Assembly (NCBI GenBank): GCA_947455255.1
Contig: CANGOA010000006.1
Coordinates: 1 to 50,664 of the forward strand
DNA length: 50,664 bases
DNA from: Flavobacteriia bacterium
Lineage (GTDB): Bacteria; Bacteroidota; Bacteroidia; Flavobacteriales_D; Crocinitomicaceae
Direction: 5' to 3'
Each line of letters opens with the position of its first letter. Position 1 is the stretch's first letter. Position numbers and translations under genes: made by a program. The notes beneath the pieces were generated by a model that saw only the letters and a list, made by a program, of their open reading frames with translations, was not told where the DNA came from and searched no databases. Below are positions 13,036 through 47,680 of this stretch, piece after piece.

Positions 13036-13037
13036 CT

Positions 13038-16593: not shown

Positions 16594-16603
16594 TTTAAAA
16601 TTT

Positions 16604-17617
16604 ATGAACATGACAACGGAAGAAATTATAACCCAAGCGCTATCAAACTTAGAAAAAATAGCAAATCTAAGAGCGGAATTTGATATAATTGAACAAAAGA
16701 AAATAGATGGTTGTTTGAAAATAACCATAAATAATAAAGTGTATTTCTTAAATGCGAAAGTGAATAAAGAACTGAGAAATCAAAAAATAGAATCATTAAT
16801 CAGTTACAATGAGCAATTCAAACCATTTATCGTCTTATCGACCAGAATTTCCTCAAGTGTTAAAACGCAATTACAAAAACATCAAATAGCTTATTTAGAA
16901 GCGAATGGAAATGTTTACTTAACTATGGATGATTGTATGCTTTGGATAGATACAAACAAAACTATTCAATTGGAAGAAAAATTTCGAAGCAGGATATACA
17001 CAAAAACAGGATTAAAGGTTGTCTTCGAATTTTTAAACAATAATAAACTGATTCATCAACCGTATAGACAAATTGCAGAAGTAACAAAAACAGCAATAGG
17101 GAATGTTACGAATATACTTAAAGGACTTAAAGAAGAAGGTTTTGTTTTACAGTTGAATAAAAATGAAATTATTTTTAAAAACAAACAAGAGTTACTTGAA
17201 AAATGGACAAACGCATTTGAATACAATCTAAAACCAACACTAAAAATTGGGACTTTTAAATTTATAGATGAAAATAATTTTTACAATTGGAAAAACATTC
17301 AATTTGTAAACGAACTAACAGTTTGGGGAGGAGAACCTGCAGCTGATATCTTAACAAATCACTTAAGACCAGAAAAATTAACACTATACACTTCGGAGAA
17401 CAGAAATGATCTAATGAAAAATTACCGCCTTGTACCTGACAGCAATGGAAATATTGAGATCTATAAAAAGTTTTGGAACGAGGATAGTAACATAAATAAC
17501 GATAAAAATACTGCTCCGCCAATGGTAGTATATGCAGATTTAATAACCTCAGACGATAAAAGAAATCGTGAAACAGCAAAAATGATTTATGAGCAACACA
17601 TTGAACAAAACGTATAA
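16604..17617 (+). CDS. Type IV toxin-antitoxin antitoxin, AbiEi-like
   Basis: This 337-residue protein resembles AbiEi-family antitoxins of type IV systems. These neutralise a nucleotidyltransferase toxin without stable binding and repress their own operon. An N-terminal domain ends near residue 120. A winged-helix segment follows around 140-175 (IAEVTKTAIGNVTNILKGLKEEGFV). The C-terminus has VVYADLITSDDKRNRETAKMIY, a conserved feature of this antitoxin group (VYADL..SxDxRNxETA). The chosen ATG 16604 lies just behind the operator; ATG 16610 is equally plausible. The last 29 bases overlap the toxin gene in another frame. Confidence 0.75.
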   Translation: MNMTTEEIITQALSNLEKIANLRAEFDIIEQKKIDGCLKITINNKVYFLNAKVNKELRNQKIESLISYNEQFKPFIVLSTRISSSVKTQLQKHQIAYLEANGNVYLTMDDCMLWIDTNKTIQLEEKFRSRIYTKTGLKVVFEFLNNNKLIHQPYRQIAEVTKTAIGNVTNILKGLKEEGFVLQLNKNEIIFKNKQELLEKWTNAFEYNLKPTLKIGTFKFIDENNFYNWKNIQFVNELTVWGGEPAADILTNHLRPEKLTLYTSENRNDLMKNYRLVPDSNGNIEIYKKFWNEDSNINNDKNTAPPMVVYADLITSDDKRNRETAKMIYEQHIEQNV

Positions 17618-18434
17618 GGAACTTGCGATACCGTATTTTAATGAAGTTTTCAATATCATTGATAGTACATTATTAAAATTAAACATACCTTACTATTTGG
17701 TCGGCGTAAGTGCGGTTGCTTTGGAATTACTTAAAGAAGGAATCAAACCTTCTCGTGGTACTAAAGATATTGATTTTGCAATTATGATAGGTTCTTTAGC
17801 TGAGTTCGAAAAAGTAGTGGTTGAGCTTGAAAACGAGGGATTCAACAAAGTAAAAGCACCGTGGACATTCTTTCATCCAACGTATAACATTGCAATTGAT
17901 TTATTACCGTTCGGACAAATTGAAGAAAATGACACAGCAAACTTCAACGAAAGATATACAGATCTTCATGTTTTAGGTTTTAAAGAAGTGATGCAACATG
18001 CTATTCCTGTAGCAATTGAAGAAAAATTTGCACAAATACCACCCTTACATGGTATGGTGATACTCAAGTTGATTGCTTGGAATGATCGACCAGAAGAACG
18101 TGATAATGATTTGAAAGACATATTATTAATTATAAAGGAATATTTCGATTTTAATAGTAATGAAATATTTGATTGCTATTTCGATACTTTCCCTGAGGAA
18201 TTTGATAAAATCATTGTTTCAGCTAGGGTTTTAGGTCGAAAAGCAGCTGAAATTATTCAAGCTTCAGAGAAAGTAAAAAATAGAGTGCTCGAAGTATTAA
18301 TGAATAACAATGCTAAACTAGAAAATTCACCCATCGCAGAACGTTGGGCTCGTGATAATGATTGGACGATTACTTATGCAGTAAGTATTTTAGAAAATTT
18401 CAAACTAGGCCTTACTGAAGTCATGAACCATTAA
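17589..18434 (+). CDS. Nucleotidyltransferase toxin, AbiEii-like
   Basis: The 281-residue protein has a minimal nucleotidyltransferase fold: LVGVSAVALELL near residue 37 followed by SRGTKDIDFAIM near 58. The latter is the catalytic DxD-type motif (DID) of polymerase-beta-like enzymes. FHPTYNIAIDLLPFG near 97 supplies the third acidic residue. Toxins of this group transfer nucleotides onto tRNA or other acceptors to stop growth, which can abort phage infection; the acceptor here is unknown. It overlaps its antitoxin gene by 29 bases, so the two are translationally coupled. All catalytic residues look intact, unlike the second toxin locus near 45 kb. Confidence 0.75.
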   Translation: MSNTLNKTYKELAIPYFNEVFNIIDSTLLKLNIPYYLVGVSAVALELLKEGIKPSRGTKDIDFAIMIGSLAEFEKVVVELENEGFNKVKAPWTFFHPTYNIAIDLLPFGQIEENDTANFNERYTDLHVLGFKEVMQHAIPVAIEEKFAQIPPLHGMVILKLIAWNDRPEERDNDLKDILLIIKEYFDFNSNEIFDCYFDTFPEEFDKIIVSARVLGRKAAEIIQASEKVKNRVLEVLMNNNAKLENSPIAERWARDNDWTITYAVSILENFKLGLTEVMNH

Positions 18435-21327: not shown

Positions 21328-24300
21328 ATGAGCAATAAAACACAAAACATAAAATCGTTCAAGATAATTTATCCCCAAATATATTCATACATATTACCTA
21401 AACGAGATCAGAATAACGGATCACAAAAAATTGGATATACAGAGAAAAAAAATGTTGATGAAAGAATACTTCAACAAGTAAAAACAGCAGCTTTTACAGA
21501 AGATTACACCAAACTTTGGAGTGCTCCAGCTTTTTTTGAAGGAGAAGAAGAAAGTTTTATTGATAAAACATTTCATAAATTTCTTATTAAAAAAGGAATA
21601 GAAAAAAAAGATAATTTAGGGGATGAATGGTTTTATTTTAATGGAGAGCCTTTAAAATCAAAGACTTTGCTCGATTTATTTCGAAAAGAAGGGTTTGCAG
21701 CTCTTCAAAATGATAACAAAAAGTTAGATTATACATTGCGTTCGGAGCAAAAAGAGGCTGTAAAAAAAGCGCTTGAGTATTTTAAAGATAATGCGAAAGG
21801 AGAATTTCTTTGGAATGCTAAACCGCGTTTTGGGAAAACATTAGCTAGCTATGATTTAGCAAAACAATTAGAAGCAACAAAAGTACTTATTGTAACCAAT
21901 AGACCGGCAATTGCAAATTCCTGGTTTGATGATTATCATACATTTATTGATGGATATGCTTTTATTTCAGAAACATCTTCTTTAAATAATAGACCAACAC
22001 TCACTAGAGAGCAGTATGTTTCAATTAAACCAATAAAACCACAATTTACATTTCTTTCTTTACAAGATTTAAAAGGCTCTAAATACTTTGGTGGGAATTT
22101 TGAAAAATTACGTTGGATAGCTGATTTAGAATGGGATTTATTAATTATCGATGAGGCACATGAAGGTATCGATACAGGTAGGACAGATGCTGCTTTTGAT
22201 ATTATTAAACGTAAACATACGCTTCATCTTTCAGGAACTCCTTTTAAAGCTTTAGCAAATGAAAAATTTCCAAAGGAAGCTATTTATAACTGGACATATT
22301 TGGATGAGCAAAAGATAAAGTATCAAGAATTAGAAGAAGGTGAATTCGGTGACCATACAGATTTACCTGATTTAAAGCTGTTTACTTATCGTATTTCCCA
22401 AATGATAACGAATGAAGTAAATGAAGGAATAGAAATCGATAATGAAAACGTTGATTATGCTTTTGATTTAAATGAGTTTTTTAGAGCAAAAGACAAAAAA
22501 TTCATAAGAGAAAATGAGGTTATAGAATTTTTAAATAATCTGACAGAAAATAAAAAATACCCTTTTTCTACACCCGAATTAAGAGAGGAGCTAAAACATA
22601 CATTTTGGTATGTTGGTAATAGGGTTGAATCTGTAAAAGCTCTTGAGCAACTTTTAAAAAAAGATCCAGTTTTCAAAGAATATGCAATAATTGTTGCTGC
22701 TGGAGATGGTAGAAGTTTCGAAGAAGAAGAAAATGATATTAGAGGCAATGAAAAATCTTTTGAAAGAGTAAAAAAAGCAATTTCAGAAAATGAAAAAACA
22801 ATTACCCTTTCATGTGGTCAGTTAACGACAGGAGTTACAATTAAAGAATGGTCTGCAGTTTTAATGTTGACAGATATTAAAACTCCTTCTTTATATATGC
22901 AGGCAGCGTTTAGGGCTCAAAATCCTTATAAAGAAATTAGGAATAGTGAGTTGTATGTTAAAAAATCTGCATACCTTTTTGATTTCGCACCGACGCGAGT
23001 ACTTGAAATCTACGATCAGTTTGCTAATGGTTTAAATCCAAAAGCAGCACAAGGTGAAATAACAGAAAAAGACAGAGAAGAGAACATTCAAGAGCTTCTT
23101 AACTTTTTCCCTGTTATATCTGAAGATGTTAATGGAGAAATGATAGAACTAGATGCAAATAAAGTTCTTACATTTCCAAATGCTTTGGCAGCAACAGAGA
23201 TTGTGAATGCACGTTTTATGACTAATCTTTTATTCAACGATAGCTTAAAGGGAGTATTCAATTTCCCCAAAGAAGTTGAAGATATTTTTGATAAAATGCC
23301 AATCGAAAAAAATAAAAGTGTACAGAAATCTAAAACTACACTTAATCTAGAAGATGCAAAAAAAATCAATGAATCAAAAACGACCAAAATAAGTGAAAAC
23401 ACAGAAATTATTCTAGGAGAAAAAATATTCAAATCAAATACTGAACGCGTCGTAGATAATTTACTTAATAAAAGTGAAAAAATATCTTCCAATGAATTAA
23501 TAGAAAACTTTACTCAAGTTGCAGAACCACTTATTGCAAAGTACAAGGAAGTATATAAAACTACCCAAGCAGAAACTAATGAGGCAACAAAACAAATTCA
23601 AGAAAAAGTTAAAGTAGTTGCTGAGGAGTTTAATAATTCAGAAAATAAAGACTCTAATGATTTAAAGAAAAAGTTAATTGAAATATTAGAAGTTGATTTT
23701 GTTCAAAATAAAGTAGAACAAAAGGAACAAGAAGTTATTGAAAAAGTTCAAAAAACCAAAGAAGATGAAATAAGAGATAGGTTGCGTTCCTTTACTCGAA
23801 CAATTCCAATGTTTATTATGGCAAATTCATCAAGAGATGAAATTACAATTGACAATTTTGATTTAGAAATTACCGATGAAGATTTTATTGATCTTACAAG
23901 CATAACCAAAGAAGAATTTCACAAATTGCGTGATGGCTTTGATTATGAAGAAAATGGCGTTAGAAAATCATTTCAAGGTGTATTTAATAAATATAGATTC
24001 AACGCATCTATTGCTGAATTTAGGCTAAAAAAAGACCAATTATCCAATTATTTTATTTCCAAAGATGATATTTTTGAGCTAATACCCAATCAAAAAACAA
24101 ATCAAATTTTCACACCGAAAAAGGTGGTACAAATGATGGTTAATCAGTTGGAAGAACATGATCCATCTTTATTTACTAGAACCGATAGTACTTTTATAGA
24201 TTTGTATATGAAGTCGGGTATGTATATTACTGAGATAGTAAAAAAACTATTCAATAATACTCGAGAACATTATAAGAGTGATAACGAATGTTTAAAACAC

Positions 24301-25575
24301 ATTCTGGAAAACCAAGTGTATGGACTTTCTCCAACACCAATTTTGCAAGGTATTACCCAAGCCTATATTTTTGGCTTTGATACTGAACAAAACATTTTAC
24401 GAAAGAATTTTAGATATCATGATTTATCTTATGATGCCCAAATAGTATTAGCACAACATAAATTAAAAGAACTTTTTAACCTAAATGAAAATATGAAATT
24501 TGATGCTGTAGTAGGAAATCCACCTTATCAAGAATCTACAGGGAAAACTGACGATCAAGATAAAGGTAACACTAAATATATTTATTATCACTTTCAAAAT
24601 ATAGCAGATCTTATTTCGAATAAAACATGTTTAATATATCCATTTGGAGGGTGGTTTGATTCACCGTTTAGTTTCGATAAGTTTGGAGAAAAACTTCTTT
24701 CAGATAAGCATACAATTTCAATTAATGCTTACGAAGGGACAACAGATAAACGTGCTTGGTATCGATTAGATAAGGATCCAGATCCTTTATTTGGTAATGA
24801 TGCAAATTTATCAGCAGGTATTGCTATTGTATTTAGAAATTTAAAAAATAAGGGGAAGGATTTTTACTATTCAAACCGAGTTTATTCAGATAAAAAAGTT
24901 AAAGTAAAATTTGATGACTGGGAGAATTTAGCTCCAAACCCTGATTTTATGGAATGGACAAAACTACTTGGAAATAAAAAAATTAAATCTAGAATTAAAA
25001 AAGGTATTTTTAGTATAGAATCAAGTTTTGTTCAAAAAAATCCTCAGAAAGTTTCTTTCAATAAAGAAGATTGGGATAATCCAATTCAAATATTAACAAA
25101 TGATAAATCAGGCTCTGCTGGAAGAGCAACTTTGTTTTGGGCTGACAAAGAAATAATTAAAAAAGGGATAGAATATATTGACCTTTACAAGGTAATTACA
25201 ACTTCGGCTTACCCGAAACAAAAGTTTTCTTCGGGTAAGCCGACAATAAAAAATGTTCAACAAAGATCGAAAGAATTAATTGAAATTCTTCCAAAAGGTT
25301 CAGCGTTTGGGGCAAGCAGACTTGCTTTGTTTATGTCTGAAAATAAGAATGAATGCGATAATTTCATTAAATATTCACAAACTCGTTTTTTCGCATTTCT
25401 TCTTTTACAAGAACCAAATCAAAGATCAACAATTGGAAGTATAATTTTAGATCAAGATTTTAGTGAAAATTCAGATATTGATTGGAATAAATCAATTTCT
25501 GAAATAGATTTTCAGTTATATTCTAAATATGAATTAAGTCAAGATGAGATTTATAAAATTAATAATCATGAATAA
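21328..25575 (+). CDS. GIY-YIG nuclease / SF2 helicase / N6-adenine methylase fusion
   Basis: This 1415-residue protein looks like a single-chain restriction-modification enzyme. The N-terminus has a GIY-YIG-like module: IYSYILP near residue 17, KIGYTEK near 37, then VDERI. A superfamily 2 helicase follows, with AKPRFGKT (Walker A) at about 164-171, IIDEAH at about 273-278, LSGTPFKAL near 300 and TGVTIKEWSAV near 505. A long hydrophilic, coiled-coil-prone spacer runs about 660-820. The C-terminal Eco57I-type methylase has FTPKKVVQMM near 930, the variant motif I FIDLYMKSGMYITEI near 956 and the catalytic NPPY at 1064-1067. It should methylate adenine and cut unmodified DNA with ATP-driven movement. 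A methylase-like partner gene follows after 20 bases. The recognition sequence cannot be read. Confidence 0.78.
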   Translation: MSNKTQNIKSFKIIYPQIYSYILPKRDQNNGSQKIGYTEKKNVDERILQQVKTAAFTEDYTKLWSAPAFFEGEEESFIDKTFHKFLIKKGIEKKDNLGDEWFYFNGEPLKSKTLLDLFRKEGFAALQNDNKKLDYTLRSEQKEAVKKALEYFKDNAKGEFLWNAKPRFGKTLASYDLAKQLEATKVLIVTNRPAIANSWFDDYHTFIDGYAFISETSSLNNRPTLTREQYVSIKPIKPQFTFLSLQDLKGSKYFGGNFEKLRWIADLEWDLLIIDEAHEGIDTGRTDAAFDIIKRKHTLHLSGTPFKALANEKFPKEAIYNWTYLDEQKIKYQELEEGEFGDHTDLPDLKLFTYRISQMITNEVNEGIEIDNENVDYAFDLNEFFRAKDKKFIRENEVIEFLNNLTENKKYPFSTPELREELKHTFWYVGNRVESVKALEQLLKKDPVFKEYAIIVAAGDGRSFEEEENDIRGNEKSFERVKKAISENEKTITLSCGQLTTGVTIKEWSAVLMLTDIKTPSLYMQAAFRAQNPYKEIRNSELYVKKSAYLFDFAPTRVLEIYDQFANGLNPKAAQGEITEKDREENIQELLNFFPVISEDVNGEMIELDANKVLTFPNALAATEIVNARFMTNLLFNDSLKGVFNFPKEVEDIFDKMPIEKNKSVQKSKTTLNLEDAKKINESKTTKISENTEIILGEKIFKSNTERVVDNLLNKSEKISSNELIENFTQVAEPLIAKYKEVYKTTQAETNEATKQIQEKVKVVAEEFNNSENKDSNDLKKKLIEILEVDFVQNKVEQKEQEVIEKVQKTKEDEIRDRLRSFTRTIPMFIMANSSRDEITIDNFDLEITDEDFIDLTSITKEEFHKLRDGFDYEENGVRKSFQGVFNKYRFNASIAEFRLKKDQLSNYFISKDDIFELIPNQKTNQIFTPKKVVQMMVNQLEEHDPSLFTRTDSTFIDLYMKSGMYITEIVKKLFNNTREHYKSDNECLKHILENQVYGLSPTPILQGITQAYIFGFDTEQNILRKNFRYHDLSYDAQIVLAQHKLKELFNLNENMKFDAVVGNPPYQESTGKTDDQDKGNTKYIYYHFQNIADLISNKTCLIYPFGGWFDSPFSFDKFGEKLLSDKHTISINAYEGTTDKRAWYRLDKDPDPLFGNDANLSAGIAIVFRNLKNKGKDFYYSNRVYSDKKVKVKFDDWENLAPNPDFMEWTKLLGNKKIKSRIKKGIFSIESSFVQKNPQKVSFNKEDWDNPIQILTNDKSGSAGRATLFWADKEIIKKGIEYIDLYKVITTSAYPKQKFSSGKPTIKNVQQRSKELIEILPKGSAFGASRLALFMSENKNECDNFIKYSQTRFFAFLLLQEPNQRSTIGSIILDQDFSENSDIDWNKSISEIDFQLYSKYELSQDEIYKINNHE
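25204..25243 (+). repeat. Perfect 14-bp GC-rich inverted repeat inside the methylase gene
   Basis: TCGGCTTACCCGAA (25204-25217) and its exact complement TTCGGGTAAGCCGA (25230-25243) flank a 12-base loop. The arms are much more GC-rich than the surrounding gene and encode SAYPKQKFSSGKPT in the methylase C-terminal region. A stable hairpin would form in the mRNA and in single-stranded DNA. Confidence 0.85.
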
Positions 25576-25595
25576 TTTCAGATTTAAAAATTATT

Positions 25596-26522
25596 ATGAG
25601 TAAGTTGAATTCTATTTTGATCGACATAAAAGAAGATTATTTAGAAAAAAATAATAATTGTTTAGATATTCTTTTGCAGGATAAAACTTCTGCAAATAAT
25701 ATTATTTGGGCTACAGATTCGTATGAACCAAAAGGTGAAAATTTTTCTCCTATCGCATCTATAACTTCAGATTTAGTTACAGGAAATAATGGGGACTTAA
25801 TTCAGCCTAGAGCTGTAAAAAGTAAGGAAGATCAATTGTTAAGAACACGAGATAAAGCGGAGGTATTTACTCCACTTTCAATCGTTAAACAAATGAACGA
25901 GGCTTGTGATACTAAAAGGGTAACTAAACACAATTGGCAAGAATATGTTTATTTACTCAAATTAGAAATTACTTGTGGTGAAGCTCCATTTATCGTTTCT
26001 CGTTATGATCCTGTTTCTGAAAGTCAGCAATTATTACCATTATCAAAACGTGTTGGATTTTTAGATTATAAATTAAAAACGATATCAAAATACTGTGACA
26101 ATCACGAAGAATGGGTTGAATGGGCGGTTAAAGCTTTTCAAAGTACATATGGTTTTGAATGGCAGGGAGATAGTTTATTGATTGCAAGAGAGAATTTACT
26201 TTATACGTTTATAGATTATTATTCTGCAAAATTCAATACCACACCAAGTATTGAGCATCAAAAAGAGATAGCAGAGATTATTGCTTGGAATATATTTCAA
26301 ATGGATGGTTTGAAATACGTGATTCCAATGAGTTGTAAGAGTGAAAATAAAGTAATTGAGGGTAAACAAACATTATTTGACAAAGAGGATGACCAAATAG
26401 TTGAACTTCCCTGTCCTGGTTGTGATAAAAAAATAGCTACAAAACACAATGGTATCTATGTGAATATTATGGATTGGGTAAAAGGTGAAACAATCAGATT
26501 TGTTGATATAGCATGTAAATAA
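25596..26522 (+). CDS. Restriction-modification 'subunit M'-type partner protein
   Basis: The 308-residue protein resembles proteins annotated as restriction endonuclease subunit M that sit beside helicase-methylase fusions. Landmarks are EVFTPLSIVKQMNEA near residue 88, LEITCGEAPFIVSRYD near 123 (in the place of an AdoMet-binding loop) and GDSLLIARENLLYTFIDYY near 190. A short Cys motif CPGCDKKIATKHNG near 272 closes the protein. No NPPY catalytic motif is seen, so it may help target recognition or complete the methylase rather than methylate alone. It starts 20 bases after the fusion gene, which implies co-expression. The assignment rests on family memory of the motifs. Confidence 0.6.
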   Translation: MSKLNSILIDIKEDYLEKNNNCLDILLQDKTSANNIIWATDSYEPKGENFSPIASITSDLVTGNNGDLIQPRAVKSKEDQLLRTRDKAEVFTPLSIVKQMNEACDTKRVTKHNWQEYVYLLKLEITCGEAPFIVSRYDPVSESQQLLPLSKRVGFLDYKLKTISKYCDNHEEWVEWAVKAFQSTYGFEWQGDSLLIARENLLYTFIDYYSAKFNTTPSIEHQKEIAEIIAWNIFQMDGLKYVIPMSCKSENKVIEGKQTLFDKEDDQIVELPCPGCDKKIATKHNGIYVNIMDWVKGETIRFVDIACK

Positions 26523-26571
26523 TATTCCTTTCGGATAAAATTGAACTAACTAAATAGCAAAAAAAAGTATT

Positions 26572-29500
26572 ATGGATTATTTATTTTGGAATAAGAATTT
26601 GTGGGATTACTTTTTTAGAGAAGATTTAAAAAACACAAATTACAAAATTGTTCTTGCTGTTAATGAAAATGTTATTCTCGAAATTGGCTCTAAATTTAAT
26701 ATAGAGAATCCTTTAGAAGACTTTATTAATGCTATTAATGAAGGGCCTAGTGAAATTGTCGACGGTATTCAGAAATTTAGTACCAAAAAGAAAGATTTAG
26801 ACATTTTGAATAAATCAAATTTTTATTTAAAAGAAAATTCTATTTTTTCAAAGTTTGGCACTAAAATTCCAAGATGGTCTGATTCAAAAGAAGAATGCTT
26901 GTTGACTGGTTATCTAGCCTATTTGGTTCTAATGATTACAGATGAAAGTCAATATTGGTCAAATGTAAATTCTAAACTTAACATACAAACAAGATCTGTA
27001 TCTCAGAATCTTACTCCATCTTTCTTTGATTATTTAAAAATATGGGCAAAAAAGAAAGGATATAACTTTTTTTTCAAAAACATATATACTACAAAAAAAA
27101 ATGTTGGCACAATTTATAGTCAACTACCGCTAACTCTTGAAGAGGAAAAACAAATTATCACATCATTGTATTATGCGAAAGTAGAAGATCCTGAAGAATA
27201 TTTGATTTTAAAAAACAAGCCTACTTTTGAAATAATTGAAGAATTTATTGAAAACCAAAAAAGCTTTCTTAATAACCCAACAACAAAAGAAATAAATGAT
27301 TATTCTAGTGAATTAAGATCTGTTGTTTTTGATTATGTATTTCAAAATTTTGATAAATACATCACATTTTGTGAAAATTCCAATGAGATCGAAATCAAAA
27401 AGGCTCTCGAATTAAGGAAAATTGTTAAACAAAATATCAAGCCAGAATATTTTTTATGTATCGAAGATCATAAAATTAAAGGTGTGTTATTAATAAATAC
27501 AAAACTTAGTAATTCTATAAAAGAAGGTAATTTATTTTTAAAGTGTAAGAAAAACGTGTACAATCATGATACTAGATTCTATCGAAATGTAAATGATGAC
27601 GAAGGTAATTTTTATAAAGCCTATTTTTTTGATGAAATATTTGAATCAGGTAAATATAAAATCTTTAATAACAATATTGAGACACATCTTGAATTTGAAG
27701 TTCCTACTTTCCCTGACTTCAAACAACCTATTTGGTATAAAGATTACTCAAGATTGAATCGAGATTTAAAAATTATTCAGTTAAATAAAAAGATTGAATT
27801 TGATATTAATAATCCTTATAAAATAATTACATCATCTGATTTTGAATTTGAAAAGGAAGAAATTGACAAATATGGAATAATAAATTTGGGGGTTAATTTT
27901 AAAATTAATGTTCAAAATAATTCTGATATATTTCAAATATTTACACTTTCTCTGGAAAAAATTGAAACAAAATTTGAATTAGCTGGAAAGGCTATTGAAA
28001 TTACTGATAAGGAATTTGAAATTATTTTACAAGGGGCACCTGACGGAAAAAGAGGTAGTACGTCATACTTAAATAAAATCCCAGTTACTATTGGTTTTAA
28101 TCCTACTTCAATAACTAGAATAAAAATTTACGAACCAAATAATACATTAATTGAAATTTCTGATTTCAAGCAAAACGATCAAAATTTAGATACTTTCTAT
28201 TCTACTCATATTAATAATCTTAAAGAAGGGGATTACAAAATCGAAGTGTATAATCTAAATAATACTGTTATCAAAACAAAAGAGTTCTCAATCACGATTG
28301 GAGATTTTTCTGAACAACGTTCTGAAAAATATTTAAAGTACAATATCTGTGATTTTAATAAACTCACCACTTTCAAGATTGATGAAAAAACAATTGAAGA
28401 ATATTCTTTAAAAATAACAAAAGAACTAATTGAGGAATTAATAGATATTTTAATAAAAGGAAAAAAGATTATAAGTGTTTACGATGATGATTTCAAATAC
28501 ATATTAAAAACACTTCTTAATAAATATAATGATTTTGATCAATTAAATACTATCAAATTAGAACCTTTAGAAATAGGCAAAAGAATTATATATATATTAG
28601 ATAGTCTTAATATCATAGAACGAGAGTTTAATTATATAAAGACTATTAACAAACCATATTGGATTTCCTCTAGTGTGGATAGAAGATATAACATAGTTGG
28701 CGCTTTATCGTTAGATGATATAAAAGAACTTAACAAGGTCACTTCTATAAAGTCAAACAACCAATCTATTAATAGATCAATAAATAAATATCAAGTCGTT
28801 TTTGAATTACCACGTCAATTCTATGTTGAAAAATGTGATGAAAACAAACTTCCTAAAACAGACAAATTTAAATATTTTCAAGATTTAGAGGAGTTTGATT
28901 TTGTATTTCAAGAACCAGAAGAATTAGAATTTATAATTGATAGCGACACCTTAAAATTAATTGACGAAAACATATTAATACCAATTAACAATATAAAAGT
29001 TTTGAATTGGTTTACTTTAAAATACGAAGCGATAATTCAAGACCAATTCAAGGAAATGCTCACGTATTGGGGGTATAAACTATTTGAAATTGAAAGTAAA
29101 AAGAAATATAATAATCGAGTTGTTAAATATTACTTTCTTTTTTCAATAGGTGAAAATGGAATTAGATATGCTTATTTTCCTTATGAACAAAGACATATAG
29201 CGCTTAGATTATACTTAAAAAAAGTAAAGTATTTTGATCTTTCACACTTAATCATTAGTGAAACGAATAATTCAGTTAGTCTAGATTTTGAATTCATTTC
29301 AAATCAACTTATAGATAATGTAATTACTGATAGAGAACACAAAAAAATATTTAGTGTTATAAATGATAATCCAGACAACATATCTGAATTTAAAACAATA
29401 ATTAATTTTCAAAATGCTTTTAAAATCGATTTAGTTTTTAGAAAAATTATTCAATCCTATTTCTTATACGATAAAGAGAATCAGATTTTTGCCATTAATG

Positions 29501-29775
29501 CATCAGTTGTATTACCTGAAAATATAGAGAAATATCTTAATGGATTAAATGGATTATTGCCAATTTATTTCAAACATAATGCAATTCTACCAATCAGCAA
29601 TTTAAATCAATTATTAACAAAAAACAGTGCTAATACTGAGGGGAAAGAAATTGAATTTAAAGCATATCAAAATATACCTGAAGAAATAGTTAGTAAAATT
29701 TCAAATAATTTAATTGGAGGACAGATGCATCTTCAAGGAAAAAATTATTTAGAAATTAAAATAGAAATAAAATGA
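26572..29775 (+). CDS. Large unassigned protein paired with DruE-type helicase (DruH-like)
   Basis: This 1067-residue protein has no enzymatic motif that I can see. It starts MDYLFWNKNLWDYFFREDLK and continues with a mixed alpha/beta domain. Around residues 483-590 a beta-rich stretch resembles an Ig-like sandwich (PVTIGFNPTSITRIKIYEP). The C-terminal half includes a helical section with FTLKYEAIIQDQFKEML near 820. Its stop codon overlaps the next start as ATGA, tying it to the 1869-residue helicase. A roughly 1000-residue partner plus a giant DUF1998 helicase is the gene layout of Druantia type III (druH-druE), which is the basis of the call. Sequence homology to DruH was not tested. Base composition is visibly more AT-rich than the recBCD block. 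Confidence 0.5.
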   Translation: MDYLFWNKNLWDYFFREDLKNTNYKIVLAVNENVILEIGSKFNIENPLEDFINAINEGPSEIVDGIQKFSTKKKDLDILNKSNFYLKENSIFSKFGTKIPRWSDSKEECLLTGYLAYLVLMITDESQYWSNVNSKLNIQTRSVSQNLTPSFFDYLKIWAKKKGYNFFFKNIYTTKKNVGTIYSQLPLTLEEEKQIITSLYYAKVEDPEEYLILKNKPTFEIIEEFIENQKSFLNNPTTKEINDYSSELRSVVFDYVFQNFDKYITFCENSNEIEIKKALELRKIVKQNIKPEYFLCIEDHKIKGVLLINTKLSNSIKEGNLFLKCKKNVYNHDTRFYRNVNDDEGNFYKAYFFDEIFESGKYKIFNNNIETHLEFEVPTFPDFKQPIWYKDYSRLNRDLKIIQLNKKIEFDINNPYKIITSSDFEFEKEEIDKYGIINLGVNFKINVQNNSDIFQIFTLSLEKIETKFELAGKAIEITDKEFEIILQGAPDGKRGSTSYLNKIPVTIGFNPTSITRIKIYEPNNTLIEISDFKQNDQNLDTFYSTHINNLKEGDYKIEVYNLNNTVIKTKEFSITIGDFSEQRSEKYLKYNICDFNKLTTFKIDEKTIEEYSLKITKELIEELIDILIKGKKIISVYDDDFKYILKTLLNKYNDFDQLNTIKLEPLEIGKRIIYILDSLNIIEREFNYIKTINKPYWISSSVDRRYNIVGALSLDDIKELNKVTSIKSNNQSINRSINKYQVVFELPRQFYVEKCDENKLPKTDKFKYFQDLEEFDFVFQEPEELEFIIDSDTLKLIDENILIPINNIKVLNWFTLKYEAIIQDQFKEMLTYWGYKLFEIESKKKYNNRVVKYYFLFSIGENGIRYAYFPYEQRHIALRLYLKKVKYFDLSHLIISETNNSVSLDFEFISNQLIDNVITDREHKKIFSVINDNPDNISEFKTIINFQNAFKIDLVFRKIIQSYFLYDKENQIFAINASVVLPENIEKYLNGLNGLLPIYFKHNAILPISNLNQLLTKNSANTEGKEIEFKAYQNIPEEIVSKISNNLIGGQMHLQGKNYLEIKIEIK

Positions 29776-32700
29776 AAAGACCTATCAAACTTGCAAAAAA
29801 TCTGCAACAAAAATTTCAAACTTATATTGAAACAGACTTTTGGGCGTTAGATCCTGATTTCCAAAAAGCTAGACGAGAATTATTAAATGACGCTAATAAA
29901 AAAGCAGTTTTTCAAGAACCATGGTTTGAAATTGTAAGACCTTACAAATCTTCTGGTAAAAAGATAGATCAGCTAGATTTAAGTGATTTCAATCAACATC
30001 TTAATTCTGATGAACTTATTTTCTTTAAAAATCTTGTTAAATCGGGATTAATTGATGGAAATATAACTCTGTATAAGCATCAATTGATGATGATTCAAGA
30101 ATATTGGAAAGGTAAAAACTTGGTGATTACAACAGGAACAGGTTCAGGTAAAACGGAATCTTTTCTTTTACCTTTGTTTTCTTATTTAAGTAAGTATTAC
30201 CTTCAAAAAAGTAATATTCAAATAAATAATTCTAGTGAAGAAAACTTATGGTATTTAAATTATCAAATTAACGGAAATAATAGGCAATATACTGAAATCC
30301 CACATCGTCAATCCGACTGTGAGAATGCTTGTGTAAAAGCAATCATTTTTTATCCTATGAATGCTTTAGTTGCAGATCAAATGAATAGATTACGAGCGGC
30401 GTTAGCATCATCAGAAGCGTTAGATGTTTTTGAACAAGCAGGAAAAGGTAAATTGTATTTTGGAAAATATAATTCCACATTGAAGGTTGCAAGATATAAT
30501 GGTAATGGAACACTTAAAAATAAGAGAGAAATTGCCAATGAAATGGAAAAACATTATGAGGCTTTTAAAAAAATAAAACAAAAAATTGATGAAAAACCAG
30601 AAGATAAAAGTATAAAGGAGCTTTATTCTTCGACACCTAATCCTTTTGGTTCAGAACTTCTCAACCGTTGGGATATGCAACAAACACCACCCGATTTATT
30701 TATCACAAATTATTCTATGCTTAATGTGATGATGATGAGGAATGAAGAAAATAATTTTTTTACTAAAACAAAGGATTGGCTTGAATCTGATCCAATAAAT
30801 AATATTTTTCACTTAATAATTGATGAACTCCATTTAAACAGAGGTACGGCAGGTGCAGAGGTGTCTTGGTTATTACGATTGTATTTAAATCGTATTGGAT
30901 TACATCCAGGTCATTCTCAACTAAGAATTTTAGCATCTAGTGCATCTTTAGAAGGAGATAAAGCGAATGAATTCTTGGAGGATTTCTTTGGTTATGATAG
31001 AAATACTTGTAATCAACATTTTTCAATAATTTCAGATGAATATTCAGATGTTGATAAACCAGATTTAGACGTATTGTCAGATGAAAAATTAATTAAAGTT
31101 TATGATTATCTACCTGATAAAAATTACGAAAGAGGTAATCCTGAAAAAATGGTACAAGAGATTTTTAATAAAAACGATCTGAATATATTTTTAGATAATG
31201 TTAAATTAGAAATTTCTTCAAAAATAGAATGTTGTTATCCAGATTACAGTAGAAAAACTATCAGTAAATCAGAATTAGCCCAAGCTTGTTTTCCAAATCA
31301 AGATAATTTTAATCAAGAAAAATGCTTAGAAGCGTTCTTGTATATAAGAAGTTTATTTGATGAACGATCTGACGGTAGAGATTTACCTAGATTAAGGATA
31401 CATTTACTCTATAATAATTTACCAGGATTGTTTTCTAAAATGGATAGTTTATCTGGTTTAACAAATGATCCATTTAAGATGATGGATGATAACAAACGAT
31501 TTGCTCAACTTCTTGTATGTTATGAATGTGGAACCCTAATGTACGGCGGTTATAGACATAATATAAATACAGAAAATGGGCTTGAGTTTGAAATGTTACC
31601 AGTACCTCAAAATTTAGACGCATCACCAGATTCGTATACACAAACAATTCCAGATTTTATGAGTTATAATGAATTTGTATTGTTTTGGCCTAATGAATTG
31701 AATAATAAACAAATTAACACTGATGCAGAACAGCCCTTTGATACCGCAAAATTCGGAGGTAGAAATATAGCGAATGGCGGACAATGGGTTTCCGCAAGTT
31801 TGAATCCAAGGAATGGTAGAATTAAAGAAGGTGCTTATAATGATAGTAATTGGGTTTTAGGTTATCTATTCAAACAACTTGTCCGAGATGAAGAAATGAA
31901 GGCATTACCATCACAATGTCCATGTTGTGCTCAAAAAAATCATTTTAACGCGCAAAGAACTACGCCCTTTAATCATTTTAGTACACCTCATAATAAAACA
32001 ACACAAGTATTAACAACTCAATTACTAAAAGAAATTAGTAATGAAGTTGATAATAGGAAACTAATAGTGTTTTCTGACTCTCGAAATGCTGCAGCAAATC
32101 TATCTGCACGATTAGAATTAGATAATTATTGGGATAGTATGCGAAAAATTATTGCATATATAGCAAGGTATTCGGAGCAAGATCAACAAATGACTCAAAG
32201 AATTGAACAAATCCAAAATGTATCTTGGAGTGAAATAGACGACGACATTAAGGAGTATATAAAAGGAAAAGGACTCGTAGATGGAGATTTAATTCAAACT
32301 GCTGAAAGAAGGTCAGATAGGGTGCACTACGCTGAAGATATAATTAAAGAATTTTTAGCTAAAATTGAAGAAACGAATGTAGGAAATAATTTAAGAATTT
32401 CAATTGCTGAAAACATTCTTTCAAATGCAAATGCTACAAATCTAGTTCTAAAAAGACTATTAGAGAAAGGTATACCTCCAATGGGTAATACTTTTAAAGT
32501 TAGAATTTCAAATAATGGTCAAAATACTTACGTACCAATTAGAGATTTTGATAATTTAAAATGGTATAATTTATATAATCTAAAAAATGGATCGTATAAC
32601 TTTGAAATAAATGGAAATCTAGATCAACGAAAACACATCAACGATGAACTAAAAAAAGAATTTACCAGAGGATTATTTGGGAAAAATCGTTTTTCAATTG

Positions 32701-35381
32701 AGATGATGGCTAAAGGATATGTTGCTTTTAAGGTAGAACAAATTCAAAATTTATTAACACAACTAAATATAACAGATCCAAATGAAAAACAAAAAATAGA
32801 AGAAGTTTCTAATAGTTTTATCAGAATCTTAGGATATAAATATAGATCAATTGCACATTCCGATATTATTCAACCAAATGATAGTAAAAATAATATTGTT
32901 GATTTCAGTTCTACACATCCCGTAAGACAATATTTAAACAAATGTTATCCTAATCAACTAAATATTCACAATCAAATTCTATGTTTACTTAATGGTTTTG
33001 GTGCAACAGTTAACAATCTTTACATTGGTGGAGTAATCGATCCTAAAGATTTTGATTTGATCTTGGCTAAAGAAAATTCAATAGTCTATATATGTAATAA
33101 CTGTCAAACCCCACATTTACATAAATCAGGAGGAGTTTGTGCACATTGTTTTACAGATTTAACAATTCCGAATAATTTAACTGAAATAATCGCTGGAGAT
33201 TTATGGAAAGAAAATTATTATACTCAAAACCCTGAAGAAGACATTATAAGACTACATTGTGAAGAATTAACAGGTCAAACAGATGATTTTGAAAAAAGAC
33301 AAAGATTATTTAAAAATCTCTTTTTGGAAGGTGAAGTACAACAAGCTGAGCAAATTGATGTGATTTCAGCAACTACAACAATGGAAGTTGGTATTGACAT
33401 AGGTTCTTTGAGTGCAACCTTAATGGGGAATATGGCTCCAGAACGTTTTAATTATCAGCAGAGGGTTGGTAGGGCAGGTCGAGGCGGTCAAGCTTTTAGC
33501 GTAGCCTTAACAGTATGTAGAAGTAGTTCTCATGATGCTTTCTACTATTTCAATCCAGATGCAATGCTTAATGCTAAGCCTCCTATCCCACTAATTCCAA
33601 TTAGTTTGAATGATATTAAAGAACGTTTTTATTTTAAAGAATTATTACGTCAAGTCTCAATGAAAGGGAATCCAGAGTTGGAAGGTCAGTTAAATGAAAA
33701 AGATACTCATGGAAGATTAGGTAAAACATCTGATTTTAAAGAAAATAAAGATAAATTCAAAGATAATTTACTTGATTCAATTCAGCGTACCATAATAGAC
33801 CCCGTTTTTACAACGTGGGCAAATTATATAAACATTAATAAGAGCATAAAGGATATAGAAGAAAAACTTAATATTGCAACAAAAAGATCCCCAATACCAT
33901 CTGGTTTGGCTTCTGCATTAGCTGAAAATGGAATATTACCAATGTTTGGAATGCCTACTAATGTAAGAGTTGCATATTTAAATGGTGGTGGAGAAGTGGA
34001 TAGAGAGGCAGAATTGGCACTCACGGAATTTGCACCTAGTTCAGAACTACTAAAAGATAAAAAATATTATCCTATGGAAGGAATTACGTCCACTCGATAC
34101 AGAATAGGAGGTAATTTAATGAATGATGTTGTCTCAGATGAATTTAATACTTTTTATTACATAGAACAAGATGATAAAAGTATATATGTTCAAAATGATT
34201 TACCTGAAGGAAATGTTACTTATCGTAAAGCGATAATGCCAAAAGCTTATTATTCTTTCAAAGAAATTTATGAAACAGACAATAATAAACAAAGACATCA
34301 ATTGAGCTTACCAAAAATAGATACAGGGATAGATGATGTCAATAAAATAACTATACATAATATTGAAGTCACTTGTTTTAAAGGAAGTTATTTTGTTTTC
34401 AATGATAATAAAGGACAAGATTTTGAGTTTTATGAAAATAATTATTCAAGACCACAAAGTAATGTCAATTTATATCAATGGTCTATTAATTCAGTCAACA
34501 ACGAAAATATGGGGACGTTTTCATTAGCTAATAAAACTTTTACCACGCTTTTAGAAATTGGTCCAAAAGAATTACCTTCAGGTTTAAGATTAGGTTTGTA
34601 TCAAGATAGTGAAGCAAACAAATTATCATTATTTCGAAATACTGCAATACAAGCAGCAGCTTATTCAGCAGCATTTATTTTACGTAATGTTTATACAACA
34701 GATAAAGATATTGATGGTGAAGAGATTAGAATATTGAAATTAAGACAACATAATGATGTGCAAAAACTTAATATTCTTCTTGCGGATAAATTGGTTAATG
34801 GTTCTGGTTTTTGCAAAGAATTATACGACAATATTTCACATTATTTTAATTTGTGTTTTGATAAATCGAATCCTTTTGCGTCAAGAATTTTATCTGAAGA
34901 AAACTTACAATGTGATACTGCAAGTTATCAAAATTTGATGAATTTCCGAAATCAGAAATTTCATCCAATTTTAGATTGGAGATTAGGTTTATCATACCTT
35001 AGGTTATTAATGAATATGGATAATGAGAGTGTTCTAAATGCTAATACAAGTTTACATGAGTTTAAAAACTATAATTCTTCAAATAATTGGAGTGAAGGTT
35101 TCCAGAATTTATTTTCTGAATGGGTAAACACTACACAATTAGGTGATTATCATTGCATAGATAATATACCTATATGTTTAAGAAATGGACATTACATTAT
35201 TGGTATACATCCTCTTTGGGATGTAGAAGCACAAAGTGGTTCTCTTTATAATACTATCAATAAATTAAATTGTAATAATCCAATATTTATAGATTCATTT
35301 AATCTTATAAGAAGACCTGGAGCATGTTATAGTGCAGTTGTTGAAGCTATCCCAAATAATGATAATATAGCTATACCATAA
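29772..35381 (+). CDS. druE: Giant SF2 helicase, DUF1998/DruE type
   Basis: This 1869-residue DEAD/DEAH helicase has Walker A TTGTGSGKTESFLLP near residue 119, FYPMNALVADQMNRLR near 195, IIDELHLNRGTAGAE near 349, a motif III-like SSASLEG near 391, and the C-terminal helicase signature VGIDIGSLSATLMGNMAPER then QQRVGRAGRGG near 1229. Cysteine pairs occur at CYECG (about 583), QCPCC (about 716) and CNNC with CAHC (about 1110), consistent with zinc binding as in MrfA/DUF1998 helicases. The motif layout and length match DruE of Druantia anti-phage systems. It is coupled by ATGA to the 1067-residue gene upstream. Its 3' end overlaps the convergent NERD-helicase gene by 11 bases. Other DUF1998 helicases (DISARM, MrfA) are shorter. 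Confidence 0.7.
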   Translation: MKRPIKLAKNLQQKFQTYIETDFWALDPDFQKARRELLNDANKKAVFQEPWFEIVRPYKSSGKKIDQLDLSDFNQHLNSDELIFFKNLVKSGLIDGNITLYKHQLMMIQEYWKGKNLVITTGTGSGKTESFLLPLFSYLSKYYLQKSNIQINNSSEENLWYLNYQINGNNRQYTEIPHRQSDCENACVKAIIFYPMNALVADQMNRLRAALASSEALDVFEQAGKGKLYFGKYNSTLKVARYNGNGTLKNKREIANEMEKHYEAFKKIKQKIDEKPEDKSIKELYSSTPNPFGSELLNRWDMQQTPPDLFITNYSMLNVMMMRNEENNFFTKTKDWLESDPINNIFHLIIDELHLNRGTAGAEVSWLLRLYLNRIGLHPGHSQLRILASSASLEGDKANEFLEDFFGYDRNTCNQHFSIISDEYSDVDKPDLDVLSDEKLIKVYDYLPDKNYERGNPEKMVQEIFNKNDLNIFLDNVKLEISSKIECCYPDYSRKTISKSELAQACFPNQDNFNQEKCLEAFLYIRSLFDERSDGRDLPRLRIHLLYNNLPGLFSKMDSLSGLTNDPFKMMDDNKRFAQLLVCYECGTLMYGGYRHNINTENGLEFEMLPVPQNLDASPDSYTQTIPDFMSYNEFVLFWPNELNNKQINTDAEQPFDTAKFGGRNIANGGQWVSASLNPRNGRIKEGAYNDSNWVLGYLFKQLVRDEEMKALPSQCPCCAQKNHFNAQRTTPFNHFSTPHNKTTQVLTTQLLKEISNEVDNRKLIVFSDSRNAAANLSARLELDNYWDSMRKIIAYIARYSEQDQQMTQRIEQIQNVSWSEIDDDIKEYIKGKGLVDGDLIQTAERRSDRVHYAEDIIKEFLAKIEETNVGNNLRISIAENILSNANATNLVLKRLLEKGIPPMGNTFKVRISNNGQNTYVPIRDFDNLKWYNLYNLKNGSYNFEINGNLDQRKHINDELKKEFTRGLFGKNRFSIEMMAKGYVAFKVEQIQNLLTQLNITDPNEKQKIEEVSNSFIRILGYKYRSIAHSDIIQPNDSKNNIVDFSSTHPVRQYLNKCYPNQLNIHNQILCLLNGFGATVNNLYIGGVIDPKDFDLILAKENSIVYICNNCQTPHLHKSGGVCAHCFTDLTIPNNLTEIIAGDLWKENYYTQNPEEDIIRLHCEELTGQTDDFEKRQRLFKNLFLEGEVQQAEQIDVISATTTMEVGIDIGSLSATLMGNMAPERFNYQQRVGRAGRGGQAFSVALTVCRSSSHDAFYYFNPDAMLNAKPPIPLIPISLNDIKERFYFKELLRQVSMKGNPELEGQLNEKDTHGRLGKTSDFKENKDKFKDNLLDSIQRTIIDPVFTTWANYININKSIKDIEEKLNIATKRSPIPSGLASALAENGILPMFGMPTNVRVAYLNGGGEVDREAELALTEFAPSSELLKDKKYYPMEGITSTRYRIGGNLMNDVVSDEFNTFYYIEQDDKSIYVQNDLPEGNVTYRKAIMPKAYYSFKEIYETDNNKQRHQLSLPKIDTGIDDVNKITIHNIEVTCFKGSYFVFNDNKGQDFEFYENNYSRPQSNVNLYQWSINSVNNENMGTFSLANKTFTTLLEIGPKELPSGLRLGLYQDSEANKLSLFRNTAIQAAAYSAAFILRNVYTTDKDIDGEEIRILKLRQHNDVQKLNILLADKLVNGSGFCKELYDNISHYFNLCFDKSNPFASRILSEENLQCDTASYQNLMNFRNQKFHPILDWRLGLSYLRLLMNMDNESVLNANTSLHEFKNYNSSNNWSEGFQNLFSEWVNTTQLGDYHCIDNIPICLRNGHYIIGIHPLWDVEAQSGSLYNTINKLNCNNPIFIDSFNLIRRPGACYSAVVEAIPNNDNIAIP

Positions 35382-37251
35382 GTTGGCATATTCCAGGGTT
35401 ATTTTGGGCAATTGAAATAATTTTTCGGGATACTTCTGAGTTAGGATTTTTCAATGTAATGACAAGGGTATCTATTGCTCTTGTCATTACTATTAAATTA
35501 AAACTCTCAATAGCTTTTTGTATATTATCTAGTTGTTGAAGTTCCATCAATTGTAGAATAAATTCATCCCATTCATAGCAAACAACAGTCCAGGCTTCTA
35601 ATCCTCTACAAGCTTGGTAACTTATTGTTCTGAATTGATCTATTGGAAACTTTTTTGTTCTATTTTCTTGTTTGTTAGCTATGAATGTTTTGTGACCATA
35701 ACTGTTAATTATGTTTTCAATTTCATCCATTTTTTCTATTCTGCCACATAAAAACATCATATCATAGAATGAATTTTCATTTTCTTGCAAATCTTTAATT
35801 AGATTAGAATGAATATCATAACTATATTGATTCGTTATAATAACTTTACCACCATTTAGTTTTTTATTATTAATTAACTCCCAGTTATATTTTTCTCCTA
35901 TTATACGTAAAAAATCAACAATATTAACTTTGTTTCTGTGAGATACTTCAAGGGTAAATTTCTGTCTTTTATCTCGGCTAAATCCATTTACCCAATCTTG
36001 AGTAATATTATTCGTTTCAAGATTCTCTATAAATTGATTCTCACCTATAGCTACTACTGTATATTGAAATCCAAATAACTTGAATATAATATTTTTTTTA
36101 TTGTCATCCCAATCTTGTCCTTCATCAATTAAAACACAATCATATTGTTGTGGTAGACTAAATAATTCTCTTGGATCTTCTACATCATTTAGAAGTGTAT
36201 TTAGCTTGTTAGTTAGTTCATCAAAATTTATATTGTTTTGATTTATTTTTTCATATTCATTCAAACATTCAAAAACAAAAGCATCAAATGTTTTAATTTC
36301 AATTTGATTTACATCAGCTAAACCAGAGTAATACAATAACCTTTTTATATCTTGCTGTAAAGCTTTGTTAAATGTTAAAATAATTGATTTTAAATCTCTT
36401 TTTTGATATAGATTTTTAGCTAGATGTATTAAGTGGATTGTTTTACCTGTTCCTGGATTTCCATGTATTGTAGTTATCTTTTTGCCAATTTCATTAAAAT
36501 AGTTTCTTTCAAATTCATTGATTTCTTTTTGAATTAATTCATGAACTTTTTTTCTTGATATTTTACCTATTCCAATAGCTGAATTTTTACTCATTACTTC
36601 GAAAAAATCTGATGTGCTTTTAGCAATTGTATCATTTGCACTACTTCGATAATACGTAATGTTATCAATTTGTTTTGGTAAATTGTTTTTAAAAACTACT
36701 TCAAAAATATTATTTAAAGTTGTTTGCCCCCAAATTATATTATAAACTTGATGAGAGTCAAAATGATTTAAAGTATCGGCTCTAAAAAGCCAAATAAGAT
36801 TTACAACAAAAGGACTATAGTTTATTCTATCTTTTAAAAAATTAATTATAGCTGTTTTTTGTCCATTACTTTGAAAAGTTACGTCATGAAATCCATCAGG
36901 ATATAAACAATAAATCTTTTGATTTTCTATCTTAATAGAAGTATACTCATTATGTTTTTTGATTTCAAAAATTAATAACGCATCTTTAATTTTTACTTTT
37001 CTATTTAAAGGTAGTGTACTACCTTGTACACCAGTTCTTACTTCTAACTCAATCTCATCAATCATATCAATCCATACAACTAAATCTAAATCTTTATTTT
37101 TTGCTTGTGGACAAATCATTGAAGGGATGATGTAAATATTTCCTCTAAGATGTTTTGGAATTGAATATTCAATTAAATTAGCAAGTTTTGAAGCTGCATT
37201 AACTTCGTCAGAAGATTCATATTGTGCGTTATATAATCGATGTATATTCAT
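35371..37251 (-). CDS. NERD-domain nuclease fused to SF1 (UvrD-like) helicase
   Basis: The 626-residue protein combines an N-terminal NERD (nuclease-related) domain with a superfamily 1 helicase. NERD residues appear as DLDLVVWID near 54 and LLIFEIKKH near 92 (the D...ExK pattern). Helicase Walker A is GNPGTGKT at 264-271, with ILTFNKAL near 290, Walker B VLIDEGQDW at about 373-381 and a C-terminal QACRGLEAWTVVC motif near 545. Such proteins are common in defence islands and are predicted to attack or unwind foreign DNA. It is transcribed towards druE and the coding ends overlap by 11 bases, so the two transcripts are antisense at their 3' ends. Confidence 0.78.
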   Translation of the reverse strand: MNIHRLYNAQYESSDEVNAASKLANLIEYSIPKHLRGNIYIIPSMICPQAKNKDLDLVVWIDMIDEIELEVRTGVQGSTLPLNRKVKIKDALLIFEIKKHNEYTSIKIENQKIYCLYPDGFHDVTFQSNGQKTAIINFLKDRINYSPFVVNLIWLFRADTLNHFDSHQVYNIIWGQTTLNNIFEVVFKNNLPKQIDNITYYRSSANDTIAKSTSDFFEVMSKNSAIGIGKISRKKVHELIQKEINEFERNYFNEIGKKITTIHGNPGTGKTIHLIHLAKNLYQKRDLKSIILTFNKALQQDIKRLLYYSGLADVNQIEIKTFDAFVFECLNEYEKINQNNINFDELTNKLNTLLNDVEDPRELFSLPQQYDCVLIDEGQDWDDNKKNIIFKLFGFQYTVVAIGENQFIENLETNNITQDWVNGFSRDKRQKFTLEVSHRNKVNIVDFLRIIGEKYNWELINNKKLNGGKVIITNQYSYDIHSNLIKDLQENENSFYDMMFLCGRIEKMDEIENIINSYGHKTFIANKQENRTKKFPIDQFRTISYQACRGLEAWTVVCYEWDEFILQLMELQQLDNIQKAIESFNLIVMTRAIDTLVITLKNPNSEVSRKIISIAQNNPGICQLMV

Positions 37252-46569: not shown

Positions 46570-46589
46570 GGATATATCTATCTTATTTC

Positions 46590-47662: not shown

Positions 47663-47680
47663 TAACTGGTTAAATTTATA

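Follow-up and report, generated by a model that had tools for sequence, protein, structure and literature searches.

Five large, closely spaced genes occupy the central part of a stretch of DNA from a bacterium of the family Crocinitomicaceae (contig CANGOA010000006.1, the whole of which, 50,664 nucleotides, is referred to here as the window), and the question raised by this locus is whether these genes make up one defence system or more than one, and of what kind. The window is one contig (C6) of the 212 that make up a genome of 3.04 Mb. A sequence-only reading had described the block as a restriction-modification (RM) module joined to a Druantia type III-like pair and a NERD helicase, and proposed either a combined system or two systems lying side by side. 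The comparison of related loci favors the second part of this proposal and lends nothing to the first. The preferred interpretation, which can be given a probability of approximately 80%, is that an AT-rich island contains two independent defence systems in head-to-tail arrangement, an RM system (21328-26522) followed by a Druantia system of the type II/IV lineage (26572-35381).

Separate occurrence of the two modules

The evidence for this interpretation is the distribution of the two modules in other genomes. The RM proteins P0001 and P0002 have no relative in any of 86 loci that contain a DruE helicase, and DruE is absent from all 13 loci that contain the RM family. The DruE loci include 80 from genome contigs, which are the best 80 of at least 556 confirmed candidates, five from plasmids (L005-L009), and one (L013) from a genome of the same family as that of the window (G252). 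The flanks of the 80 loci extend over 0-10 kb, and absences near the contig ends are weak. The flanks of the RM loci (L010-L012, L108-L112, and L126-L130) are also uneven, with the match in L011 and L126 beginning less than 0.9 kb from the end, while L109-L112 were recovered only through the nuclease-helicase half of P0001.

At the level of the order, P0001 (at E 1e-100) and the helicase P0004 (at E 1e-50) were each found in two of 399 genomes, in two draws, and the only genome shared by the two sets is that of the window, the other match being G019 for P0001 and G252 for P0004. The lists of plasmid records (61 and 89) have no accession in common among the 40 + 40 matches listed, and P0001 and P0004 each have a single match in their own genome. 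Given that the RM and Druantia modules occur apart elsewhere, their proximity in the window is read as the adjacency of two systems. The sequence-only reading had regarded the occurrence of each pair mostly on its own in other genomes as the mark of chance adjacency, and this is the pattern that the loci present.

Table 1. The five large genes of the block, with their assignments and the basis of each assignment.
Protein	Coordinates	Strand	Length (aa)	Assignment	Basis
P0001	21328..25575	+	1415	Single-chain RM protein: GIY-YIG-like nuclease, SF2 (ResIII) translocase, Eco57I-type methylase	Pfam, PADLOC, motifs
P0002	25596..26522	+	308	M-like partner	PADLOC MTase_II PDLC03390, 313 bits; FTP and motif-I-like stretch
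P0003	26572..29775	+	1067	Divergent, probably fused DruF-DruL	Profile hidden Markov models, hhalign, fused chains L015/L019
P0004	29772..35381	+	1869	DruE of the DruE2/DruE4 lineage	PADLOC DruE2, 1239.6 bits over 1-1856; tree; conserved columns
P0005	35371..37251	-	626	NERD-like PD-(D/E)XK nuclease region and UvrD-like SF1 helicase	PADLOC, Pfam, invariant residues, neighbours

The coordinates and gaps of these open reading frames (ORFs) agree with those described earlier. P0001 and P0002 are separated by 20 bases and P0002 and P0003 by 49 bases, while P0003 and P0004 are joined by an ATGA overlap, and the convergent P0005 overlaps P0004 by 11 bases, although the small gaps are approximate, given that the start of each scripted ORF is the first start codon past a stop. 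The GC content at third codon positions (GC3) ranges from 0.148 to 0.204 across the five genes, compared with 0.248-0.319 in eight upstream genes, and the block is thus AT-rich, as had been claimed. This low GC3 is not peculiar to the block, however, as the values of the seven downstream genes range from 0.156 to 0.338. The block resembles DNA that may have been acquired, and the downstream neighbours were possibly acquired as well. Promoter-like and terminator-like sites are not enriched over shuffled sequences (94 vs 106.8 and 6 vs 5.1, respectively).

The type of the Druantia pair

The lineage of the Druantia module is indicated primarily by its helicase. P0004 reaches 1240, 1191, and 1120 bits on the DruE2 and DruE4 models of PADLOC (1240 for DruE2 and 1120 for DruE4), and only 495 bits on DruE1 and 217.8 bits on the best DruE3 model. 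In a quick maximum likelihood tree of the 86 DruE proteins, it falls within a 39-row clade (Shimodaira-Hasegawa-like approximate likelihood ratio test, 98) in which most of the Bacteroidota rows are grouped with the DruF/DruL/DruE (F/L/E) systems of cyanobacteria, archaea, and some Bacillota. The end branch of P0004 is the longest in the tree, at 1.71 changes per column, and its exact tree neighbour is therefore unsure. In the Protein Data Bank (PDB), P0004 has a match of 457 bits to entry 9wae and its set.

P0004 retains 162 of the 185 columns that are at least 93% conserved in the other proteins, among them those of the Walker A, DELH, and motif VI sequences. The 23 lost columns include cysteines at 1467, 1470, two positions near 1481, and 1721, and a sixth cysteine is lost at 1718, a position that 76 of 82 proteins conserve. 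Given the loss of these six widely kept cysteines, the zinc sites of the C-terminal half of the protein are probably gone or altered, which fits the absence of a Pfam match to DUF1998; the earlier label of "DUF1998 helicase" must thus be dropped. Pfam recognizes DEAD and Helicase_C only, in a scan that included no search aimed at the PLD nuclease domains that mark the C-terminus of DruE in type III. Three other DruE proteins (L074, L013, and L077) deviate from the conserved columns more than P0004, and are perhaps incomplete. The DruE of G252 ends at 1532 aa, and is 35% identical to P0004, and the two may represent a sub-lineage that is shedding its C-terminal zinc sites. In G252, this helicase stands beside a 1093-aa partner in a two-gene pair, and the contig of 10.8 kb that carries them contains no relative of the RM module.

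The partner of the helicase, P0003, has no match in PADLOC, Pfam, or NCBIfam, nor in the PDB at E 1, and its relatives were reached solely through profiles of the neighbours of DruE. A DruF-type profile built from 24 of these neighbours matches residues 1-258 (E 2.9e-13, compared with 0.73 for the best of 1000 shuffles), while a profile of the whole F-L chain reaches P0003 at E 1.7e-20 (best shuffle, 0.049), a match borne by residues 1-321 and 955-1047, the latter at 8.1e-7. A DruL-like profile matches the protein as a whole at 1.2e-6 (best shuffle, 0.0037), mainly through residues 955-1047, with a domain value of 5.4e-5. The hhalign comparisons follow the same pattern, with a probability of 96.7 for the N-terminus against 24 DruF-like proteins, while the C-terminus reaches 62.9 with the DruL-like set and 90.9 with the fused chain of L015. 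P0003 is thus probably a DruF-DruL fusion (DruFL), with a DruF-like N-terminus and, more weakly, a DruL-like C-terminus.

Fusions of this kind are not new as such. When PADLOC was applied to ten neighbours from eight loci, eight of the ten were named DruF, DruL, or both, those of L013 and L078 being unnamed. In L020, DruF and DruL are two genes (neither of which has a sequence match in the PDB at E 0.01), whereas they are fused in L015 (DruF over 3-663 and DruL over 694-1007), and likewise in L019. The DruF2 models of PADLOC that are 1011 and 1030 positions long recognize an F-like protein and also an L-like one. According to a profile to which many of the 80 loci themselves contributed, 25 of these loci have the two regions fused and 35 have them split, while 10 show them only in part and 10 do not show them. 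The 1093-aa partner in G252 is also matched over both ends by the fused profile (1.3e-32), and escapes PADLOC too.

A number of results weigh against the fusion. The PADLOC models of DruF and DruL miss P0003 even at E 1, and its middle part (approximately 321-955) has no significant alignment to either protein. Two profiles of fused chains, B (Bacteroidota-type) and C, fail to reach it, while that of group D does so at 2.9e-4 only (best shuffle, 0.069), and the hhalign probability against the G252 partner alone is 2.4. In a separate search for close relatives of P0003, by peptide patterns or tblastn, none was found in the genome contigs, plasmids, or viral contigs, and at E 1e-4 the protein matched only itself among the 395 genomes of the phylum.

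The pair had previously been assigned to Druantia type III, that is, a DruH-DruE pair beside the RM system. The layout would suit this type, as both consist of two genes, one for a protein of some 1070 aa with no known match and the other for a large DEAD helicase, and the size of P0003 is close to that of most of the DruH models that match YjiT of Escherichia coli K-12, ten of the eleven having 1036-1168 positions. The YjiT control matches these 11 DruH models at E up to 1, whereas P0003 matches none, and BLASTP found nothing better than E 2.0 between P0003 and YjiT. Combined with the low DruE3 scores and the significant match of P0003 to the DruF-type profile, this leaves the type III assignment extremely improbable, and the candidate was rejected. 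The lack of a DruH match is also the outcome that the sequence-only reading had named as refuting the type III call. What survives of the earlier description is a helicase of the Druantia family with a partner of its own. The accounts of type III in PMC13192584 and PMC13316683, as far as they describe the system, share with the window the two-gene layout and the large YprA-family helicase, but not the absence of DruH and the poor DruE3 scores.

Types II and IV are much closer. In type IV, which comprises DruE, DruF, and DruL in the passages of PMC8565338 on typing, the shared features are the DruE2/DruE4 lineage, the order F/L then E, and a partner with a DruF-like N-terminus and a weaker DruL-like C-terminus; the window differs in that F and L are apparently fused, PADLOC misses DruF and DruL, and the six DruE cysteines are lost. 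Type II (named Type IV CoCoNuT in the relevant part of PMC12458937) shares its best helicase model, DruE2, and the DruF-like region with the window. According to the same passages of PMC8565338, however, type II requires DruM and DruG beside DruF and DruE. No C5 methylase was recovered by profile among the window ORFs, and DruM thus appears to be absent here, and a search for DruG, which covered P0003 and ten further ORFs of the window but had no positive control for the DruG models, gave no match. Judged by their sequences, the two genes at 26572-35381 form a divergent Druantia that belongs to the type II/IV lineage.

The NERD-like helicase and the alternative arrangements

The convergent gene that overlaps DruE had been described as a NERD-SF1 helicase, of which the helicase and the overlap stand. 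Pfam places UvrD and the SLFN-g3 helicase above the cut-off in P0005, and the PADLOC model C3a187 ("NERD+UvrD", 41.9 bits) covers the helicase part only. Residues D56, E96, and K98, together with those of Walker A, are invariant in 11 aligned relatives. The Pfam NERD model is silent in all three of the family members scanned (P0005, L078, and L133), and the protein is called NERD-like, rather than NERD, given that the name rests on the PADLOC model and these three residues.

Relatives of P0005, at 143-214 bits, are found in six of the 80 DruE loci (L030, L041, L078, L080, L085, and L092), and the other 74 have none at this level. In five of the six, the gene is on the same strand, 4-18 bases from the F/L or E gene. 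When L133 is added, the NERD-like gene is no more than 25 bp from the F/L/E genes, or overlaps them, in L041, L078, L080, L085, L092, and L133, with a distance of 326 bp in L030. The reverse search, at E 1e-10 in the 395 genomes of the phylum, gave matches to P0005 in nine, four of them, besides that of the window, with near full-length matches, and the other four with the helicase stretch only; a second match in G741, at a contig edge, was left out. One of the four independently found relatives lies beside Druantia, in G430, where the run is NERD, a 595-aa protein, a 423-aa protein, and DruE. By a rough estimate made by hand, from approximately five copies in 394 genomes, far fewer than one such adjacency would be expected by chance in 80 loci, although the samples differ in their taxa and defence genes tend to cluster.

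P0005 is thus best seen as an optional companion of Druantia II/IV that has been recruited several times. A fixed partnership is disfavored by the 74 loci with no such gene, by the fact that the NERD-like genes linked to Druantia do not form one clade, and by the convergent orientation of P0005, its counterparts being co-directional in the seven other adjacent cases. The last two points also count against the preferred interpretation as a whole, as does, slightly, the silence of the Pfam NERD model. A limited literature search found no report of the link between NERD and Druantia. The passages on NERD in PMC12458937 concern TALON, and those in PMC10952713 concern Mokosh (type I) and Nhi-like systems, whose phage-defence proteins are listed with a NERD nuclease domain, a feature that P0005 would share; the NERD-like helicase of the window, unlike these, adjoins DruFL and DruE. 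In five proteobacterial loci (L055, L060, L061, L083, and L089), a UvrD-like helicase of 546-573 aa, distant from P0005, is found close downstream of DruE, and recalls the UvrD-family ArmD of ARMADA, as it is described in part of PMC12458937.

The recurrence of the NERD-like gene beside the F/L/E genes raises the possibility that DruFL, DruE, and the NERD-like nuclease form a Druantia II/IV subtype of their own, devoid of a cytosine methylase, with the RM pair being unrelated. L080, L085, and L092 are consistent with this, as they contain neither a C5 methylase nor a PF12705-type nuclease in the available stretch, but the stretches of L085 and L092 end at DruE, leaving the downstream genes unseen. 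In L030, by contrast, the NERD-like gene is combined with both a PF12705 nuclease and a C5 methylase, in L041 and L078 such a methylase follows 2-3 kb downstream, and there is no NERD-like gene on the short contig of G252. Given the lack of a Druantia-specific clade of these genes as well, a separate subtype appears somewhat unlikely.

A composite system is improbable. In such a system, the adenine RM module would provide both self-marking and first-line restriction, with DruFL and DruE dealing with the DNA that escapes, and the RM methylase would stand in for the C5 methylase that an iterated profile found in 50 of the 80 Druantia II/IV-type loci, often directly downstream of DruE, as is the PF12705-type nuclease (31 of the 80). 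Neither profile matches an ORF of the window, where the only PF12705 match is weak (25.5 bits) and lies within the RecB-like protein, and the search of the genome recovered a single C5 methylase, located elsewhere (contig C29). The observations that count against two independent systems favor this composite, that is, the four plus-strand genes are co-directional and so tightly spaced that they could be co-transcribed, and the low GC3 is common to all five genes, as in a single joint acquisition. The completeness of the genome, 77%, is a further reservation about the preferred interpretation. The distribution of the modules in the 86 DruE loci and 13 RM loci gives the composite no support. In addition, 30 of the 80 loci have no C5 methylase in the available stretch, which is short in some cases, and the methylase thus seems dispensable; the same is true, by profile, of the 2.9 kb upstream of the G252 pair, and a scan for N6-methylase motifs, with a crude pattern, flagged ORFs in just three of the 86 loci. 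An arrangement of all five genes in layers, in which the adenine RM would fill the self-marking slot of the cytosine methylase, DruFL would sense, DruE would unwind replication intermediates, and the NERD-like protein would fill the slot of the PF12705 nuclease, is highly improbable. Two independent systems, the Druantia pair with an optional NERD-like companion, thus remain the preferred reading.

The restriction-modification pair, its surroundings, and the proposed functions

The claim that P0001 combines a nuclease, a helicase, and a methylase in one chain is borne out by Pfam for the helicase and the methylase, with ResIII at 51.7 bits and Eco57I at 54.5 bits. The N-terminal match to T5orf172 (GIY-YIG), at 18.9 bits, is below the Pfam cut-off of 20, but the GIY-YIG motif, like those of Walker A, DEAH, FTP, and NPPY, is also present in the relatives of the protein. 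PADLOC assigns P0001 to type IIG (106.5 bits), whereas the PDB sequence search returned no match at E 0.001. Its motifs suggest methylation of adenine, and the C-terminal region is presumed to be the target-recognition domain, which follows the methylase in Type ISP enzymes. P0002 had been described as a partner resembling subunit M, and while the motifs listed in Table 1 agree with this, it has no NPPY motif and no Pfam match, and, judged by its motifs, is not a complete methylase. Motif I of P0001 is atypical (DLYMKSGMY), and P0002 carries a motif like that of the S-adenosylmethionine site. The methylase may thus be split across the two proteins.

Partners of the P0002 family are found in eight of the 13 RM loci. 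In the two loci with the closest relatives of P0001, proteins 72% and 73% identical to P0002 are encoded further downstream, at a distance of 2.8 kb in L108 and 1.7 kb in L130. Other ORFs separate the two genes there, whereas they are adjacent in the window, a point against the preferred reading. P0001 has relatives in 89 plasmid records (39 from Enterococcus and nine from Lactococcus), 26 of which cover at least 80% of the query, and in 15 of 395 genomes of the phylum at 1e-50, with full length only in the genome of the window and G564. In phage records, nine match P0001, two of them covering at least 80%, and two match P0004 partially, while scans of the viral contigs gave no relative of either protein.

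The known systems that P0001 most resembles are the Type ISP enzymes LlaGI and LlaBIII, which, in the parts of PMC3874165 that describe them, also carry a nuclease, a translocase, and a gamma-type methylase in a single chain. Their nuclease is Mrr-like, however, while that of P0001 is GIY-YIG-like, with no Mrr match in Pfam at E up to 0.01, and P0002 is an extra, separate M-like partner. The same account describes these enzymes as translocating and cutting once two of them meet.

Upstream of the block, the recBCD neighbour described earlier is confirmed by a RecC_C match of 105.7 bits at 9949-13035 and by RecD- and RecB-like proteins, within a DNA-repair run (3797-16406) of a metallophosphoesterase (SbcD-like), an SbcC-like protein, and the RecD-like, RecC, and RecB-like proteins. 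This run is followed, at 16556-18434, by what may be a toxin-antitoxin pair of the AbiE type. Its first protein, of 353 aa, contains an AbiEi antitoxin domain (118 bits), and its second, of 281 aa, overlaps the first by 29 bases and has no Pfam match and only a weak PADLOC match to PDC-M21B (E 8e-4). Positions 2-1003 encode a reverse transcriptase (RVT_1, 76.6 bits), its frame being open at the contig start, and a DUF6088 protein (45967-46569), a Fic/DOC protein (47941-49062), and an ORF with an rve integrase core lie near the other end (region 45967-50473).

By analogy with the known systems, the RM system would most likely methylate host DNA in a site-specific manner, while on unmethylated DNA the RM protein would translocate and cut in the manner of the Type ISP enzymes, with GIY-YIG replacing Mrr. 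In the Druantia system, DruFL is likely the sensing and regulatory subunit, an analogy based on DruH as described in part of PMC13192584. The same source describes 3' single-stranded tails as the loading site of DruE in type III, and P0004, as a YprA-family SF2 helicase, would probably load in a similar way on 3' single-stranded replication intermediates. The motif and the company of P0005 make it the likeliest source of nuclease activity for this system.

What is new here is a relative of Druantia II/IV whose partner lies beyond the current models, and a NERD-like helicase that recurs as its companion. Druantia II/IV thus reaches a sequence space that the current detection models partly miss, as indicated by a partner with no matches and a helicase branch of 1.7, and layout alone is insufficient for the assignment of a two-gene Druantia locus to type III. 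The NERD-like nuclease-helicase is a recurrent neighbour of Druantia, and a candidate for the nuclease of the system.

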